25,003 nt of DNA from a virus, in IMG/VR virus record IMGVR_UViG_3300020185_000245, positions 1-25,003 of that record; one strand, given 5' to 3'. Both the position numbers and the translations under genes were made by a program. Shown here one piece after another: positions 6,744 to 25,003 of this stretch. The number at the start of each line of letters is the position of its first letter. Position 1 is the stretch's first letter. The notes below the pieces were generated by a model that made no database searches, had not been told where the DNA came from, and saw nothing but the letters and a program-made list of their open reading frames with translations.

Positions 6744-7138
6744 TGAATTATATAATTATACTTCCTGAAGGAATCCTAAATTCAAAACAAAGAGCTAACA
6801 GAATAAGTGAAGAACTTTATAATATTACTTCTCCTATAGCTATTCAAAAAAACTATCAAAGGGGGGGAAAATTATTTAAAGTTATCTCACATCCTGATAA
6901 CACCCAACATGCTCTCCAAGTTAACCTTAATTATAACATAATTGTAAACCCTCAAGCAACTCTAGAAAAATTAACTTCATTATTCACAGAACTTACTGAA
7001 AACGAAATTAGAACACTTTCGGCTTATGTTCTTAATTCTAAAGAAGTGAGATTTGAAACTATTATTCCTAGTACTGTAACTGTGCATAATAGAGAATATA
7101 TGATTGAAAACGGGTGGTTTCCTGAGGATCCTTTATAA
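6743..7138 (+). CDS. Hypothetical protein downstream of second fibre
   Basis: I do not recognise this 131-residue protein. It begins MNYIIILPEG and appears to be a small soluble alpha/beta protein, with two short hydrophobic strands (YIIILP, NYNIIVNP) and a helix near residues 75-100 (LEKLTSLFTELTENEIRTLSAY). No signal peptide or transmembrane helix is evident. The ATG overlaps the fibre stop (TAATG at 6741-6745), which indicates translational coupling to the fibre. Like the 73-residue gene after the first fibre, it could be a fibre assembly factor or a minor structural protein, on position alone. Confidence 0.7.
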   Translation: MNYIIILPEGILNSKQRANRISEELYNITSPIAIQKNYQRGGKLFKVISHPDNTQHALQVNLNYNIIVNPQATLEKLTSLFTELTENEIRTLSAYVLNSKEVRFETIIPSTVTVHNREYMIENGWFPEDPL

Positions 7139-12272: not shown

Positions 12273-12758
12273 ATGGCAGTATTAGATCCCAACGAAATAT
12301 TTTTCACCCCGTTTGAACCAAAACAAAAGAATAGATTTGTTTTGTATGTAGATGGATTCCCCGCTTACCTTATCAAAGGATTAGGAGCAGTAAAAGTCAC
12401 ACAAGGTACAGTTGAATTAAATCATATCAATGTTCAAAGATTTGTAAAAGGCAAAACTAAATGGGATCCAATCTCAATGACATTATTTGATGCGATCACT
12501 CCTTCTGGAGCCCAATCAGTAATGGAATGGGTAAGATTACACCACGAATCAGTAACCGGTAGAGATGGTTATTCTGATTTTTACAAAAAGGATATGACAG
12601 TAAATGTCTTAGGTCCTGTAGGTGATGTAGTTTCAGAATGGATCATTAAAGGTGCTTTAATAACCGATGCATCATTTGGTGATTACAATTATGATGAAGA
12701 AGGTGCTGTTGAAATCGCAATGACAGTACAACCCGATTATTGTGTGTTGAATTTCTAA
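12273..12758 (+). CDS. Tail tube protein, T4 gp19-like
   Basis: This 161-residue protein is the major tail tube subunit, which stacks as hexamers inside the sheath. Length matches T4 gp19 (163). Features typical of the family are the start DPNEIFFTPFEPKQKNRFVL, the strand LYVDGFPAYLIKG, the VELNHINVQRFVKGKTKWD segment, an ITPSGAQSVMEWVRLHHESVTGRDGYSDFYKKD block condensed over residues ~70-105, and the closing strands with GAVEIAMTVQPDYCVLNF. It immediately follows the sheath gene, the usual myovirus arrangement, and a strong terminator lies 21 bases downstream, consistent with an abundant transcript ending here. Confidence 0.93.
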   Translation: MAVLDPNEIFFTPFEPKQKNRFVLYVDGFPAYLIKGLGAVKVTQGTVELNHINVQRFVKGKTKWDPISMTLFDAITPSGAQSVMEWVRLHHESVTGRDGYSDFYKKDMTVNVLGPVGDVVSEWIIKGALITDASFGDYNYDEEGAVEIAMTVQPDYCVLNF

Positions 12759-12779
12759 TACAAGTCAAAATATATAAAG

Positions 12780-12806
12780 AAAGACGTACTTCGGTACGTC
12801 TTTTTT
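12780..12806 (+). terminator. Rho-independent terminator with UUCG tetraloop
   Basis: A perfect 10-bp stem (12780-12789 pairing with 12794-12803) closes on the loop TTCG inside a C(UUCG)G context, one of the most stable RNA tetraloops. The 3' arm merges into a run of six T (12801-12806), followed by further T-rich sequence. It lies between the tube gene and the next gene, whose own upstream element starts 11 bases later. Confidence 0.93.
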
Positions 12807-12849: not shown

Positions 12850-13587
12850 ATGAGTGAATTAAAATTTCCAACCGAAATGGTTGAATTGCCTTCAAAAGGC
12901 TTAGTTTACCCTGAGGAAAATCCTCTTTCAAGTGGTAAAATAGAAATGAAATATATGACGGCTAAAGAAGAAGATATTCTTACTAACCAAAACTATATTA
13001 ACAATGGAACAGTAATTGATGAATTATTAAAAGCATTAATTATAACTAAAATTAATTATAATGACCTAATCGTAGGAGATAAAAATGCTATTATGGTAGC
13101 AGCCCGTGTTTTAGGTTACGGTAAAGATTATAGTTTTACATATGAAGGAGAAGACCATACAGTTGATCTTTCCCAATTAGATAGTAAAGAGATTAATGAA
13201 AAAGACTTTACCAAAGGAAAAAATGAATTTTCTTTTACCCTTCCTACATCTGGAACTTTAATTACTTATAAATTATTGACCCATGGGGATGATAAAAAAA
13301 TAAATAACGAAATTAAAGGTCTTAAAAAATTAAATAAATTAGCCTCCCCTGAATTATCAACTAGACTAAAACATATGATTCTTTCAGTAAATGGTGATGC
13401 TGAAAAAAAATCAGTAAGGGAATTTGTTGATAATTATTTTTTAGCTAAAGATTCTAGAGCATTTAGGGAACACATAAAAACTACCCAACCAGACGTAAAT
13501 TTAAAATTTGAAATAGAGAGACCAGATGGTGATGTCAAGGATATTGACATTCCTGTCGGTATCACGTTTTTTTGGCCTGACCTCTAA
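12850..13587 (+). CDS. Tail assembly chaperone / baseplate protein, T4 gp26-like
   Basis: This 245-residue protein resembles the T4 base-plate family (gp26; Pfam T4_baseplate, from memory). The signature is near the N-terminus: MVELPSKGLVYPEENPLSSG (10-29), then IEMKYMTAKEEDILTN (31-46) and a DKNAIMVAARVLGYGKDY segment (77-94). It sits between the tube and the tape measure, where other contractile and siphovirus tails encode the gpG-type chaperone that coats the tape measure. Its last codons, ending FFWPDL, overlap the following frame at a T7 run, so a frameshifted longer product is likely. It follows a terminator and a copy of the recurring element, so it probably starts a new transcript. 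Confidence 0.82.
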   Translation: MSELKFPTEMVELPSKGLVYPEENPLSSGKIEMKYMTAKEEDILTNQNYINNGTVIDELLKALIITKINYNDLIVGDKNAIMVAARVLGYGKDYSFTYEGEDHTVDLSQLDSKEINEKDFTKGKNEFSFTLPTSGTLITYKLLTHGDDKKINNEIKGLKKLNKLASPELSTRLKHMILSVNGDAEKKSVREFVDNYFLAKDSRAFREHIKTTQPDVNLKFEIERPDGDVKDIDIPVGITFFWPDL

Positions 13588-13846
13588 TTATAGAAAACAA
13601 TTATTTTCTCATATTCATGAAATAGTTTTTCATGGCAAGGGTGGGTATGATTACTATACAGTATATAATATGCCTATATGGTTAAGGAATTTTACTTTTC
13701 AACAGATTAATGAACATTATCAAAAAGAAAAGGAGGCTTATGATAAATCAAATTCTAAAGGTAGCACTGTAATAGATAGAAGTGGTATTATAAAAAAATC
13801 ACCATCTTCAAGTAAAGAGTCAAAACCTAAACGAGCAACATATTAA
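13526..13846 (+). CDS. gp51-like downstream frame, probably expressed by +1 frameshift
   Basis: This frame is +1 relative to the gp26-like gene and overlaps it by 62 bases. Its nominal ATG at 13526 only gives an out-of-frame reading of the upstream gene's end, with no plausible start after it before the conserved part. From 13574 the sequence becomes protein-like: SNYRKQLFSHIHEIVFHGKGG, then YDYYTVYNMPIWLRNFTFQQ and a lysine/serine-rich tail. The HGKGG and YNMP motifs resemble T4 gp51-type hub assembly proteins as I recall them. Frame change at TTT-TGG (13570-13575) would give a 331-residue fusion, analogous to lambda gpGT. Alternatives are reinitiation, or a homopolymer sequencing error that split one gene. 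Confidence 0.72.
   Translation: MVMSRILTFLSVSRFFGLTSNYRKQLFSHIHEIVFHGKGGYDYYTVYNMPIWLRNFTFQQINEHYQKEKEAYDKSNSKGSTVIDRSGIIKKSPSSSKESKPKRATY
13567..13575 (+). other. Candidate +1 frameshift site
   Basis: Seven T residues are followed by GG. In the upstream frame they read TTT TTT TGG; a Phe tRNA in the P site could slip one base from UUU (13570-13572) to UUU (13571-13573) and then read GGC in the downstream frame. The upstream frame stops at 13585-13587, four codons after the slip. A -2 slip in the T run would give the same frame. Confidence 0.6.
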
Positions 13847-13851
13847 AATTA

Positions 13852-13877
13852 AAGGGGATACAATTTCGTATCCCCTT
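13852..13877 (+). terminator. Stem-loop between chaperone and tape measure genes
   Basis: A perfect 10-bp stem (AAGGGGATAC at 13852-13861 with GTATCCCCTT at 13868-13877) encloses a 6-base loop. It begins five bases after the gp51-like stop. No continuous T run follows, only TTAATATTT, so it may be a weak or partial terminator or an RNA-processing or stabilising hairpin. The recurring upstream element starts two bases after the stem. Confidence 0.65.
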
Positions 13878-13900: not shown

Positions 13901-16696
13901 ATGGGTTTAGAACAATCAGCTAAAGAAGCAAGAGCAGCAGCTAATGAACTAGAAGGTTCTTTTGGTGAATATAGAGATGCCCTGCGAGCTAGTAATGAAG
14001 CACTAGGTAACAAAATAAATAATATAAAAGAAGCTAGCTCTCTATATGGTCAATTAGATGGTCAATTACGAAAACTTCAAGATCAAGAAGAAGGAATAAA
14101 CCGCTTAAATGACCAACAACTTGAACAAATTAGAAGTAAAGCTAATTCACAAGTTGCAGAAATTCAAAGACGTGGTGAAGCCTTAACAGTAAGTAAAAAG
14201 GAACTTCTTTTAGATAAAAATAAAAAGGAATTACATGCGGGTAATGTTAGATTAAGACTTAACCAATTAGTTGCTACTAAACAAATTACTAAAGCCGAAG
14301 CTGAATTAATTGAAGCCACAAAACAAAACTTTAAAATAGAAGAAGAAGCTTTAGGTTTAATAGAAAAAGAAATTAGCCTTAGGGAAAGATCTAATAGAGC
14401 TTTAGGGGTTAGTGGAAAAATTTTAAAAGGAATTGAAAATAGCTTAGGGGATTTTGCTAAAGCTTTTAAATTAGATCAAGTTGCTAAAGATATGGAAAAA
14501 GCAGCTGATGAAGTTGCTAGATTAAACCAAAATTTTGGTAGAACTAGAGTTCTTATGGCTGGAATCAAATCAGCTGGTAAGGGTTTAGTAGAAACTATAA
14601 CAGATCCTACAGTTATTATAGCGGGTATTGCTAAATCATATAGTGAATATGAAAAAAGTGCAAGAGAAATAAGACAAGAAACAGGGGTATCAGCTGTAAC
14701 CTTAAGTAAAATGACCAATTCAGCTGGTACCTTTAATGATAGTATGGTATCATCTATTGATGCCGCTAAAACTATTGGTTCTCTTACAAAAGAAACCGGT
14801 ATGAATGTTGCCGCAACTTTTAGCTCTGATACTATTACAGCTGCTACTGAACTCACTACATTACTTGGGTTAGGTGCTGAAGAAACAGCTAACATGGCTT
14901 TAAGAGCTGAGGTATTTGGGGATGATTTAGGAAAAGCAGGAACACAAGCTGAGGGTATAGTACAAGATTTTGCAAACCAGGGTAAAGGAGCTGTAAACCT
15001 AAAGGCAGTTATGTCAGATGCAGGTAAAGCTTCAAATGCTTTATCTATGAGTATAAAAGGAGGTCAAGAGGGTCTTATAAAAGCAGCTGCGGGAGCTGCT
15101 GCCTTAGGTATTAATCTTGCTAAAGCAGAAGGAATTGCTGATAGTTTACTTAATTTCCAATCTTCTATTGAAGCTGAAATGGAAGCTGAACTCTTAACAG
15201 GTAAACAAATCAATTTAGAAAAAGCCCGAATGGCTGCTTTAAATAATGATATGGTTACTTTGACAGAAGAAATAGCCAATAATACCGAAATTCAAGCAGC
15301 ATTTTCCTCAGGAAATAGAATCCAACAAGAAGCTATTGCTAAATCTTTAGGAATGTCTAAAGATGATGTTGCTAAGATGATTTTGTTAAGTGAAAAAAAT
15401 AAAAACTTAACAGAGCAACAACGAGCAGATGCAGCAGGTATTACTATTGAAGAAGCAAAACGATTAGGAACCCAAGAACAAATTTCAAAAGCAATTGAAA
15501 AAATGACAGCAGCCCTTGCTCCGGCTCTTGGTATTTTTGCATCTCTTCTTGATAATAGTCTTGTACTTTATACTACTATGGCTGCTGTAGGAGCTATAAT
15601 ATCAGTAAAGATATTAGGAAGTGCTATTTCATTGGGTAAAGAGATGAAAAGTACTCTTAGCACTACTAAAGATATAGCAAAAAATCTAGCAAAAGGATTT
15701 GCAGGGGGCAAAGAAGGAGGGGGGATGTTAGGGGGTATAAAAGGAGCAGCAAAAGGACTAATGGGGGGAGAAGGAGATAAAGTAAAGTCCGCAGCTAATA
15801 GTACAAAAGGTATTAAAGGGGATCAAGGTAAAGGAGTAAAAGGATTTCTTAAAGGATTGGGGGATGGTTTAGCCTCTATAGGCAAACAAGCTGCAAATGT
15901 AATAAAAGGTGGTTTAGCATTAGGTATTGTAGGTGTTATTTTAGGGGGCTCATTTGCTTTAGCTATGAAAATGGTTGAAAATGTAGACCCCGTACAAATG
16001 ATAGCATTTTCTGCAGCTTTAGCTATATTTGGTACTACTGCTGCTTTAATTGGAAAATTAGGCTCTCAAGTAATGCAAGGTGCAGCTGCTTTATTAGTAA
16101 TGGGGTTGGCTTTAGTTCCTGCTGCATTTGCTTTTAGTTTATTAGAAGGATTAGACACAGATGCTCTTATAGCATTTTCAATAGCATTACCTTTATTATC
16201 ATTAGCAGCAGCTGGATTAGGATTAATTGCTCCTTTTATAATAGCAGGAGCAGCAGCAATTGGTGTATTAGGATTAGCTATGCTACCTTTAGCAGCATCT
16301 TTCCAAATGTTAAATGGGGTTGATTCTACAGGAGTAGTAACTAGTTTAGCTACATTTGCTGGGTTAGCCCCTGGGTTAATGTTAGTTGCTGCCTCTTTAT
16401 TTTCAATTGCAGGAGGATTAGGAGCAATGGCTATAGCAGGTATAGCTGCTCTCCCTGTAATGGCCGGTTTAATGGGTTTAGGGACAGTTGCTACTGGTAT
16501 ATCTTCAATTTTAGGAGGAGATGAAGAAGGAGGTGAAGAAGCTGCCCCTAAAAATAGTGATAATGCTATTTTAGCAGAAAAATTAGATCAAATGAATGCT
16601 ACATTAAATGCTATTTTAACTAAAGAAGGCACGGTTATGTTAGACAGCACAAAAGTAGGAACCGCTTTATCAGTAGGATCTTATAAATTACAATAA
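13901..16696 (+). CDS. Tail tape measure protein
   Basis: This 931-residue protein has the classic tape-measure design. Residues 1-210 are highly charged helices with coiled-coil character; residues ~210-540 are alanine-rich helical repeats of glycine, alanine and threonine; hydrophobic segments occur at ~535-580, ~670-690 and almost continuously at ~700-870 (for example LGIVGVILGGSFALAMKM and AALLVMGLALVPAAFAFSLL). A glycine/lysine-rich linker (~600-660) lies before them. The C-terminus has KLDQMNATLNAIL and MLDSTKVGTALSVGSYKLQ, an ending typical of phage tape measures. It would set tail length and be released through the tube at infection. With the usual ~0.15 nm per residue, the tail would be near 140 nm, an inference. 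It directly follows the chaperone pair, as expected. Confidence 0.92.
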   Translation: MGLEQSAKEARAAANELEGSFGEYRDALRASNEALGNKINNIKEASSLYGQLDGQLRKLQDQEEGINRLNDQQLEQIRSKANSQVAEIQRRGEALTVSKKELLLDKNKKELHAGNVRLRLNQLVATKQITKAEAELIEATKQNFKIEEEALGLIEKEISLRERSNRALGVSGKILKGIENSLGDFAKAFKLDQVAKDMEKAADEVARLNQNFGRTRVLMAGIKSAGKGLVETITDPTVIIAGIAKSYSEYEKSAREIRQETGVSAVTLSKMTNSAGTFNDSMVSSIDAAKTIGSLTKETGMNVAATFSSDTITAATELTTLLGLGAEETANMALRAEVFGDDLGKAGTQAEGIVQDFANQGKGAVNLKAVMSDAGKASNALSMSIKGGQEGLIKAAAGAAALGINLAKAEGIADSLLNFQSSIEAEMEAELLTGKQINLEKARMAALNNDMVTLTEEIANNTEIQAAFSSGNRIQQEAIAKSLGMSKDDVAKMILLSEKNKNLTEQQRADAAGITIEEAKRLGTQEQISKAIEKMTAALAPALGIFASLLDNSLVLYTTMAAVGAIISVKILGSAISLGKEMKSTLSTTKDIAKNLAKGFAGGKEGGGMLGGIKGAAKGLMGGEGDKVKSAANSTKGIKGDQGKGVKGFLKGLGDGLASIGKQAANVIKGGLALGIVGVILGGSFALAMKMVENVDPVQMIAFSAALAIFGTTAALIGKLGSQVMQGAAALLVMGLALVPAAFAFSLLEGLDTDALIAFSIALPLLSLAAAGLGLIAPFIIAGAAAIGVLGLAMLPLAASFQMLNGVDSTGVVTSLATFAGLAPGLMLVAASLFSIAGGLGAMAIAGIAALPVMAGLMGLGTVATGISSILGGDEEGGEEAAPKNSDNAILAEKLDQMNATLNAILTKEGTVMLDSTKVGTALSVGSYKLQ

Positions 16697-22118: not shown

Positions 22119-25003
22119 ATGGCACAAAAATTTATTATAGACAGAAACTTAGGAGCATTTTGTATTCCTTACAAGCTATCAAGTACCTCTACGGTTCCTG
22201 TTTCTGGAAGAATAAGTTTATATAACAGCCTAAAAGTAGCAAACGTTAGTAGAATTGATATAAACAAATCAGATCTATCTCGGAACGACTTATCGAATTA
22301 TTTAAATACTAGCAGTAAAGGCACTATAACACTGTATAGTAAAGAGTTTCCTACTAGCTATGCAATATTTTCTTATACATCTATAACAGAAAATTCTAAC
22401 TACGTAACTTTTAACCTTACACCAGGGGCAATTGCAAAATCTGAAAACATCCCTTTTTCATTAGAAGAAGAAGTGTGTTTGATGTTGGATTATAATGATG
22501 GAACTGGTGGACCTGGTGGAACATCTGGAACATCTGGTACTTCAGGTGATGGTACTTCAGGTACTTCTGGTACTAGCGGGCAAGATGGTACTGATGGTTC
22601 TGATGGTACCTCTGGTACTAGTGGTACTGATGGTTCTGATGGTACCTCTGGTACTAGTGGTACTGATGGTATTGATGGTTCAAGTGGCACATCTGGTACT
22701 AGTGGTACAGGAGGTGATTCAGGTTCAAGCGGTTCATCAGGCTCATCAGGTACTTCAGGTTCATCAGGTTCAAGTGGTACTAGTGGATCTTCAGGCTCAA
22801 GCGGTACCTCAGGTTCATCAGGCTCATCGGGTACTTCAGGTTCATCAGGTTCAAGTGGTACTAGTGGCTCATCAGGTTCTTCAGGTACTTCAGGTTCATC
22901 AGGATCTTCAGGTACATCAGGATCAAGTGGTTCATCAGGCTCATCAGGTACTTCAGGTTCATCAGGATCTTCAGGTACCAGTGGATCTTCAGGCTCAAGC
23001 GGTACCTCAGGCTCATCAGGTACTTCAGGATCATCAGGTACTAGTGGCTCAAGCGGTACTTCAGGTTCATCAGGTACTTCAGGTTCATCAGGTACTTCAG
23101 GATCTTCAGGTACTAGTGGCTCGTCAGGCTCATCAGGTACTAGCGGTTCATCAGGTACTAGCGGTTCCTCAGGTACTTCAGGCTCATCAGGAACATCAGG
23201 TTCAAGTGGTACCTCAGGATCATCAGGTACTAGTGGTTCATCAGGTACTAGCGGTTCCTCAGGTACTTCAGGCTCATCAGGAACATCAGGTTCAAGTGGT
23301 ACCTCAGGATCATCAGGTACTAGTGGTTCATCAGGTTCAAGCGGTACTTCAGGTTCATCAGGTACTAGCGGTTCATCAGGTACTAGCGGTTCCTCAGGTA
23401 CTAGCGGTTCCTCAGGTACCAGTGGCTCAAGCGGTACTTCAGGATCATCAGGTACTTCAGGATCTTCAGGTACTAGTGGCTCGTCAGGCTCATCAGGTAC
23501 TAGCGGTTCATCAGGTACTAGCGGTTCCTCAGGTACTTCAGGCTCATCAGGAACATCAGGTTCAAGTGGTACCTCAGGATCATCAGGTACTAGTGGTTCA
23601 TCAGGTTCAAGCGGTACTTCAGGTTCATCAGGTACTAGCGGTTCCTCAGGTACTAGCGGTTCCTCAGGTACTAGCGGTTCCTCAGGTACCAGTGGCTCAA
23701 GCGGTACTTCAGGATCATCAGGCACTTCAGGATCTTCAGGTACTAGTGGCTCGTCAGGTTCATCAGGTACTAGTGGTTCATCAGGTACTAGCGGTTCATC
23801 AGGTACTAGTGGTTCATCAGGTACTAGTGGTTCATCAGGTTCAAGCGGTACTTCAGGTTCATCAGGTACTTCAGGATCTTCAGGTACTAGTGGCTCGTCA
23901 GGCTCATCAGGTACTAGCGGTTCATCAGGTACTAGCGGTTCATCAGGTACTAGTGGTTCATCAGGTACTAGTGGTTCATCAGGTTCAAGCGGTACTTCAG
24001 GTTCATCAGGTACTTCAGGATCTTCAGGTACTAGTGGCTCGTCAGGCACCTCAGGTTCATCAGGTACTAGCGGTTCCTCAGGTACTAGTGGTTCATCCGG
24101 TTCAAGCGGTACTTCAGGTTCATCAGGTACTTCAGGATCTTCAGGTACTAGTGGCTCGTCAGGCACCTCAGGTTCATCAGGTACAAGTGGTTCTAGTGGT
24201 ACTTCAGGATCTAGTGGTACTTCAGGCCCACCAGGAAAACCAGGTAATAATGGTGCTTCAGGTACTTCAGGATCATCAGGTACTTCAGGATCAAGTGGTA
24301 CCTCAGGTTCATCAGGTACTAGTGGTTCATCAGGTACTAGTGGTTCATCAGGTACTAGTGGTTCATCAGGTACTAGTGGTTCTAGTGGTACTTCAGGATC
24401 TAGTGGTACTTCAGGCCCACCAGGAAAACCAGGTAATAATGGTGCTTCAGGTACTTCAGGATCATCAGGTACTTCAGGATCAAGTGGTACCTCAGGTTCA
24501 TCAGGTACTAGTGGTTCATCAGGTACTAGTGGTTCATCAGGTACTAGTGGTTCATCAGGTTCAAGCGGTACTTCAGGTTCATCAGGTACTTCAGGATCTT
24601 CAGGTACTAGTGGCTCGTCAGGCACCTCAGGTTCATCAGGTACAAGTGGTTCTAGTGGTACTTCAGGATCTAGTGGTACTTCAGGCCCACCAGGAAAACC
24701 AGGTAATAATGGTGCTTCAGGTACTTCAGGATCATCAGGTACTTCAGGTTCATCAGGTACTAGTGGTTCATCAGGTACTAGTGGTTCATCAGGTACTAGC
24801 GGTTCATCAGGTACTAGCGGTTCATCAGGTACTAGCGGTTCATCAGGTACCTCAGGATCATCAGGTACTAGTGGCTCAAGCGGTACTTCAGGTTCATCAG
24901 GTACTTCAGGATCTTCAGGTACTAGTGGCTCGTCAGGCTCATCAGGTACTAGCGGTTCATCAGGTACTAGTGGTTCATCAGGTACTAGTGGTTCATCAGG
25001 TAC
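22119..25003 (+). CDS. Giant collagen-like tail fibre, 3' end beyond the window
   Basis: This reading frame is open from the ATG at 22119 to the window edge, 961 full codons plus two bases. Residues 1-127 form a globular beta-rich domain (MAQKFIIDRNLGAFCIPYKL, KGTITLYSKEF, YVTFNLTPG) that likely attaches to the baseplate. From codon 128 onward the protein is Gly-X-Y for at least 834 residues, with X and Y mostly Ser and Thr. Early triplets include aspartate (GTDGSDGTS), there is one phase break (GTSGDGTS at 22536-22559), and three GPPGKPGNNGA islands occur at 24225, 24414 and 24684. Such regions form rod-like trimeric shafts in phage fibres. The receptor-binding C-terminus lies outside. A long proline/glutamate open frame on the opposite strand is a shadow of this repeat. 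Confidence 0.9.
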   Translation, partial: MAQKFIIDRNLGAFCIPYKLSSTSTVPVSGRISLYNSLKVANVSRIDINKSDLSRNDLSNYLNTSSKGTITLYSKEFPTSYAIFSYTSITENSNYVTFNLTPGAIAKSENIPFSLEEEVCLMLDYNDGTGGPGGTSGTSGTSGDGTSGTSGTSGQDGTDGSDGTSGTSGTDGSDGTSGTSGTDGIDGSSGTSGTSGTGGDSGSSGSSGSSGTSGSSGSSGTSGSSGSSGTSGSSGSSGTSGSSGSSGTSGSSGSSGTSGSSGSSGTSGSSGSSGSSGTSGSSGSSGTSGSSGSSGTSGSSGTSGSSGTSGSSGTSGSSGTSGSSGTSGSSGTSGSSGSSGTSGSSGTSGSSGTSGSSGTSGSSGTSGSSGTSGSSGTSGSSGTSGSSGTSGSSGTSGSSGTSGSSGSSGTSGSSGTSGSSGTSGSSGTSGSSGTSGSSGTSGSSGTSGSSGTSGSSGSSGTSGSSGTSGSSGTSGSSGTSGSSGTSGSSGTSGSSGSSGTSGSSGTSGSSGTSGSSGTSGSSGTSGSSGTSGSSGTSGSSGTSGSSGSSGTSGSSGTSGSSGTSGSSGTSGSSGSSGTSGSSGTSGSSGTSGSSGSSGTSGSSGTSGSSGTSGSSGTSGSSGSSGTSGSSGTSGSSGTSGSSGTSGSSGTSGSSGTSGSSGSSGTSGSSGTSGSSGTSGSSGTSGSSGTSGSSGTSGSSGTSGPPGKPGNNGASGTSGSSGTSGSSGTSGSSGTSGSSGTSGSSGTSGSSGTSGSSGTSGSSGTSGPPGKPGNNGASGTSGSSGTSGSSGTSGSSGTSGSSGTSGSSGTSGSSGSSGTSGSSGTSGSSGTSGSSGTSGSSGTSGSSGTSGSSGTSGPPGKPGNNGASGTSGSSGTSGSSGTSGSSGTSGSSGTSGSSGTSGSSGTSGSSGTSGSSGTSGSSGTSGSSGTSGSSGTSGSSGSSGTSGSSGTSGSSGTSGSSG
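22500..25003 (+). repeat. Collagen-like 9-bp coding repeat array
   Basis: The array is built of 9-bp units coding Gly-Thr-Ser or Gly-Ser-Ser, using all six serine codons. Perfect higher-order copies sit inside it: 23085-23246 equals 23445-23606 (162 bp, offset 360); 24186-24371 equals 24375-24560 (186 bp, near-perfect 189-bp tandem duplication); and 24099-24289 equals 24558-24748 (191 bp, offset 459). It runs off the window. Unit number may be wrong if assembled from short reads. Confidence 0.95.

Follow-up and report, generated by a model that had tools for sequence, protein, structure and literature searches.

In lambda, the tail assembly chaperones gpG and gpGT are encoded in the gene order tube - G - T - tape measure, and the long form is made by a -1 shift near the 3' end of G. 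Vladimirov, Gautam and Davidson are said to have found that several T4-like groups keep frameshifting and that T4 uses genes 26 and 51. Frameshifting between G and T is widely conserved, with T4 as an exception (Atkins et al. 2016, PMC5009743), and the gp51 of cyanophages and vibriophage was found to be without the first ~200 residues (Sullivan et al. 2010, PMC3037559). The T4-like chaperone genes were identified in 2022 by Vladimirov, Gautam and Davidson (Virology 566:9-15), going by the title cited in PMC12846349 (reference 76). To judge from that title, the frameshifting missing from T4 can no longer be treated as an open question, and the link between the T4 hub genes and the G/GT system, which the earlier note on this DNA had drawn, is correct but was already published by these authors. 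The two-form chaperone family and its connection to T4 are known; what appears to be new at the locus described here is the +1 direction of the shift and its site, conserved through a large phage group. A search of open-licence papers turned up no description of this clade and no account of a +1 site in the chaperone family.

The window is a viral DNA stretch of 25,003 nucleotides (IMG/VR record IMGVR_UViG_3300020185_000245, positions 1 to 25,003). Direct reading of its plus strand confirmed a first frame (ORF1) of 245 codons and a +1 frame that is open from before 13526 through 13846; counted from its ATG at 13526 to its stop at 13846, the latter overlaps ORF1 by 62 bases, as had been noted earlier. 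ORF1 ends in ATC ACG TTT TTT TGG CCT GAC CTC TAA, with a run of seven Ts at 13567-13573, and four sense codons separate TTT TTT from the stop, again as first described. Across the run, frame 0 reads TTT TTT TGG CCT GAC CTC TAA and the +1 frame reads ..GGC CTG ACC TCT AAT. The base skipped is likely T13573, with reading resumed at the GGC of 13574, and the functional part of the +1 frame (ORF2) runs from there (Table 1). The join FF|GLTSNYRK and all coordinates given for it in the earlier note proved correct. The predicted junction peptides of the window protein are DIDIPVGITFFGLTSNYR for a +1 shift and DIDIPVGITFFFGLTSNYR for a -2 shift, and the predicted C-terminal tryptic peptide of the short form, G, is DIDIPVGITFFWPDL. 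We infer that a programmed +1 ribosomal frameshift in one gene very probably yields two tail assembly chaperones, G and a long form, GT; the conserved frame offset, the site itself and the homology of both domains all support the joining of a gp26-like protein to a gp51-related domain that had been proposed.

Table 1. Features of the tail chaperone locus and its surroundings in the window
Feature	Position	Strand	Evidence
Tail tube protein (gp19-like), upstream neighbour	12273..12758	+	phrog_4542 tail tube, E 2.1e-27
Intrinsic-terminator-like hairpin in the gap between the tube gene and G	12777..12806	+	folding; comparable hairpins common in relatives
G (TAC-N, gp26-like), 245-aa short form of the tail assembly chaperone, C-terminus FFWPDL	12850..13587	+	phrog_150, profile-profile comparison, AF2
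+1 frameshift site TTT TTT TGG CCT GAC	13567..13581	+	sequence, conservation, codon controls
T (TAC-C), C-terminal domain of the long form in the +1 frame, 90 aa past the shift	13574..13846	+	32 homologues, hhalign, AF2
GT (TAC-NC, gp51-like), predicted 331-aa +1 frameshift product (P0001)	12850..13846	+	phrog_150 match into the T part
Downstream neighbour, a 931-aa protein, probably the tape measure	13901..16696	+	position, length, annotated relatives

The identity of the two domains was examined by profile searches and structure prediction. G matched phrog_150 with an E value of 1.5e-9, and its match to PF12322 (20.7 bits) was under the cut-off of 24.5. In hhalign, the G profile aligned with T4 gp26/gp51, P-SSM2 and others over 222 columns (99.5%, E 3.1e-22), and T aligned with a set made up of short cyanophage ORFs, which are T domains, and the T4 gp51 C-terminus (95.6%, E 1.3e-8). 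The joint T profile, which had the gp51 C-terminus among its rows, matched T4 gp51 at 9.8e-9. Among 32 homologues, T has an invariant P and R in YNMPxWxR. When the fusion was searched, GT residues 4-282 aligned with positions 10-272 of the 282 of phrog_150, that is, into the T part. Both T4 gp26 and T4 gp51 match PF12322 (8.8e-64 and 3.9e-52) and phrog_150, and of this pair only gp51 continues into the last part of phrog_150. The additional C-terminal domain is present in gp51 and absent from gp26, which makes gp51 the long form of the two and gp26 the short one. By sequence comparison, G is the counterpart of gp26, the predicted GT that of gp51, and ORF2 by itself that of the part which gp51 has and gp26 lacks; the matches of both the N domain and the TAC-C domain place the locus among the T4-like tail assembly chaperones. 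The earlier description of gp26 and gp51 as the two halves of a chaperone holds insofar as a gp26-like G is joined to a gp51-related domain, but gp51 is a paralogue of gp26 with an extra C-terminal domain and not a half. Modelled separately with AF2, G reached a pLDDT of 93 and T one of 78, with helices at residues 4-20, 27-31 and 35-61 of T. For residues 1-90 of G, HK97 gp13 (2ob9), a chaperone of the lambda gpG type, ranked first of 957 chains, with a weak match (Z 4.3, rmsd 3.6, 71 aligned); this modelled likeness may serve as a lead, its Z being too low to demonstrate a common fold. A Foldseek search with G returned no significant PDB match, no significant match was obtained for the fold of T alone, and sequence search found no solved relatives of gp51 or of the GT profile.

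Conservation was assessed on loci collected in separate ORF1 and ORF2 searches, some contigs being fetched by both; at least 160 loci hold both frames, and clustering at 90% identity gave at least 84 lineages. Among the matches listed, ORF2 lies in +1 relative to ORF1 at 159 of 160 loci (84 lineages), and in the lone exception, L117, which the script flagged as fused, the site is intact and an indel lies further upstream within G. The clade with the +1 site is abundant and takes in Flavobacterium phage immuto, which infects Flavobacterium sp. LMO8 and has the TTTCTTTGGCCTGAC site, and Microcystis phage Mel-JY01, two isolates that share the +1 arrangement. In a more distant, Mel-JY01-like set, the offset is +1 in 78/78 scorable loci; TTTTTTTGGCCT is kept in most of these, the next codon being free, and the variant CTTTTTTGGCCT still holds UUU then Y. 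The site is a homopolymer in metagenomic contigs, which speaks for a sequencing error or a recent mutation in a gene that is truly one frame. Since the isolates share the arrangement, however, this reading is already refuted, and the shared offset among the matches listed leaves it next to no probability; the fused homologue with six Ts that it predicts was not found in the clade among these matches.

The 15-nt site is nearly invariant, in contrast to codons elsewhere that are just as conserved but differ in their third base. Among the matches listed, the 84 lineages divide into 63 with TTTTTTTGGCCTGAC, 16 with TTTCTTTGGCCTGAC, one with TTTCTATGGCCTGAC, three with TTTTTTTACCCT(T/A)CC and one with TTTTTTTGGCCAGAC. 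In these lineages, TTT (F240) is used in 84/84, CCT (P243) in 83/84 and GAC (D244) in 81/81, against a mean share of the commonest codon of 0.65 (maximum 0.91) at 68 other conserved degenerate codons of G, a control that is internal to G and has the same phylogeny as the site. All the other conserved Asp positions of G have GAC as their minor codon. Part of the nucleotide invariance is explained by the site's coding for WP in frame 0 and for GL in +1, a dual role which itself implies translation of both frames. Beyond this share, the conservation of the site exceeds what protein coding requires.

A start codon of its own would allow T to be made as a separate protein, from 13526 or 13532 in the window. 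The window does have ATG, GTG, ATG and TTG codons in the +1 frame at 13526-13544, and the cyanophages, which are -1 relatives, conserve an ATG two bases past the G stop (19/19 lineages), from which a separate T protein is possible in that group. None of the window's start codons is conserved, however: among the matches listed, 36/84 lineages have no ATG, GTG or TTG between the upstream stop and the site in the T frame, and an ATG is present there in only 24/84 and absent from 60/84. The first start codon 3' of the site is typically 103 nt in, within the conserved domain. The +1-frame peptide 5' of the site is not conserved, and conservation starts exactly at GLT. Separate initiation is very improbable on this evidence, and among the matches listed no conserved start for the second gene was found in the clade. 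The earlier statement that the second frame has no credible start of its own stands, the four candidate codons of the window not being conserved.

In the proposed programmed +1 shift, the majority of ribosomes would keep to frame 0, their product being G (245 aa, ...ITFFWPDL), and a minority would slip one base forward on UUU UUU | UGG C. The peptidyl-tRNA-Phe would re-pair one base downstream with UGG waiting in the A site, or, in some relatives, tRNA-Leu on CUU would do so instead; GGC would be decoded next, and continued reading through the T domain would yield GT (331 aa, ...ITFFGLTSNYRK...). By analogy with lambda gpG and gpGT, G may form a coat on the tape measure protein, and the small number of GT molecules may recruit tube subunits through their T domain. 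Comparative genomics points to a short form here and, through a shift close to where the first frame stops, a long one.

The same two frames could be joined by a -2 ribosomal slip at the T run, which would give FFF|GLTS, one Phe longer. Such -2 shifts are known in Mu-like tail chaperones, which gives this reading a precedent, and in the window, as in most lineages, TTTTTTT lets the tRNA re-pair two bases back. But a C breaks the run in 17/84 lineages among the matches listed (TTTCTTTGG; TTT CTT TGG or TTT CTA TGG), and there -2 re-pairing is mismatched, whereas +1 re-pairing (UUU to UUC, CUU to UUU) is not. UUU then Y is kept in all of these interrupted runs, the first site codon is TTT followed by T or C in every lineage of the main set, and SP-15, GXN1 and CP21 keep UUU-Y without seven Ts. 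We consider a -2 slip improbable. The C-interrupted lineages, which lack an unbroken homopolymer, also speak against RNA polymerase slippage, in which mixed mRNAs, some encoding GT, would be transcribed from the run. The window offers seven consecutive Ts and, just 5' of them, a terminator-like hairpin (GATATTGACATTCCTGTCGGTATC, 13540-13563), but nearly all of the uninterrupted lineages have seven Ts or fewer and the hairpin is not conserved in relatives; polymerase slippage is highly improbable.

With the +1 ribosomal slip as the favoured reading, stimulatory signals were sought around the site. No conserved RNA structure was detected downstream, where the mean folding z of -0.7 to -1.0 is near that of control stretches, or upstream (mean z -0.47), and the hairpin at 13540-13563 was discarded as a stimulator on account of its lack of conservation. 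Some low-efficiency shifts of tailed phages and influenza virus seem to work without stimulatory signals (PMC5009743). About 26-33 nt 5' of the site, the 84 lineages show an enrichment of GAGGAGG-like Glu codons, and at one of these Glu positions the third base is G in about 68% of lineages, against a GAG background of 21% in the gene. A Shine-Dalgarno stimulator like that of prfB was rejected, these codons being too far upstream.

Across the T4 superfamily, other phages reach two forms by other means. In P-SSM2, S-PM2, HTVC008M, Cr30, phiM12, phiW-14, KVP40 and ACP17, T follows directly, in the -1 frame, on T TTT TTY, which falls at the same Phe-Phe pair as the +1 site. T TTT TTC is invariant in 19 cyanophage lineages, even though TTC is the less used Phe codon there (43 of 211), and HTVC008M has no start codon ahead of the conserved T region. 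Salmonella phage Vi01 has T in -1 with no early start and no canonical heptamer (GAA ATT TTC ATT TAA). Besides the clade, the +1 relatives are SP-15 (TTT TTT CAC), GXN1 (TTC TTT CGT) and CP21 (TTT TAC), each with UUU then Y. In Campylobacter phage CP21, it is the second phrog_150 gene (record position 94776 onward) that has T in +1, after ATA TTT TAC; this phage also has another G-like gene without T, and so combines paralogues with a shift. Two divergent genes are found in T4, Aeromonas phage 31 and an Acinetobacter phage, and a tandem pair in RB43; Pseudomonas phage PaBG, with tandem short and long phrog_150 paralogues, is an apparent separate two-gene case. On a tree of 30 G domains with poorly supported deep branches, the three strategies require 5 changes, compared with 13.4 for shuffled labels. 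Searches of viral contigs from the SP-15, RM378 and phiW-14 G proteins returned only those phages, the +1-clade profile had no match in CP21, PTm1, ACP17, PaBG or PAU, and phrog_150 had none in PAU or PTm1. The +1 extension of RM378 was not recognised by the T profiles and is assigned to T by its position only. We tentatively raise the possibility, on balance a doubtful one, that the Phe-Phe pair closing G is an old recoding site used both ways (one half of the T4 superfamily using U UUU UUY for -1, the other UUU YUU UGG CCU for +1), with the invariant UGG CCU (GAC) acting as a 3' stimulator of a new type for bacterial +1 shifts at sense codons.

The chaperone gene is expected to help in building a contractile tail. 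The order tube - G - T - tape measure is found in the window and in annotated relatives, and a tail sheath gene also neighbours the locus. The genes of immuto and SP-15 equivalent to the downstream neighbour are annotated as tape measure protein, and the 931-aa product itself had no family match in profile searches. A terminator-like hairpin 5' of G is present in 38/49 lineages compared with 4/50 for a control stretch inside G, and SP-15 has an annotated terminator at the matching position. This hairpin probably sets a lower mRNA level for the chaperone and the tape measure than for the tube. Another hairpin of terminator type lies 3' of T and ahead of the tape measure gene (13852-13877); by the same test, 5/47 lineages only have one there. 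Farther downstream, 22119-25003 encodes a long collagen-like protein of GTSGSSGTSG repeats that is cut off by the end of the contig, and the long antisense ORFs there are mechanical.

Natural +1 shift sites at sense codons have been described as 'notoriously difficult' to spot (Atkins 2016 review, PMC5009743), and these results add one that is strongly conserved. They also suggest that a -1 slip, a +1 slip and gene duplication are three ways in which a single chaperone family arrives at the same pair of proteins. In the immuto record (NC_055915), the T domain (6839-6949, gp038) is annotated as a 36-aa hypothetical protein and the long form is missing; many deposited genomes, immuto among them, thus lack the long form of an assembly protein that is expected to be essential.

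Compared with lambda gpG/gpGT, the locus has the same gene order and a long form predicted to result from shifting frame late in G, but the shift is +1 and not -1. No sequence similarity of G to lambda gpG or HK97 gp13 was found, and G is about 150 residues longer than the part matching HK97 gp13. With the T4-like chaperones (gp26/gp51; PF12322, phrog_150, phrog_634) it shares homologous G and T domains, and these too occur as two forms that share G, differ by T and are encoded near the tape measure gene. The cyanophages, Cr30, phiM12, phiW-14, KVP40 and ACP17 shift by -1 after T TTT TTY, whereas here the shift is +1 after TTT YTT TGG CCT, and T4, Aeromonas phage 31, the Acinetobacter phage, RB43 and PaBG have separate paralogues, whereas here there is one gene and a shift. 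The canonical -1 pattern X XXY YYZ does not apply, the offset being +1 at 159 of the 160 loci among the matches listed.

Known +1 sites include CUU_AGG_C of yeast Ty1, CUU_UGA_C of bacterial prfB, CCC_UGA of Listeria phage PSA and UUU_CGU of influenza PA-X. As at the site described here, these have a P-site codon able to re-pair one base on, followed by a codon assumed to be slow. Ty1 also resumes at GGC, and an abundant tRNA-Gly for GGC matters there (PMC5009743). The present site differs from them in its sense A-site codon UGG, the Phe-Phe pair before it and the invariant CCU after it, from prfB in having no Shine-Dalgarno at the prfB spacing, and from Ty1, prfB, PSA and PA-X in being used in a tail chaperone. 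A further likeness by description, a reported +1 shift in a tail gene, is with the haloarchaeal myovirus HSTV-2, whose tail-gene frameshift was reported to be very likely +1 (PMC5009743) and whose host belongs to a domain other than the bacterial.
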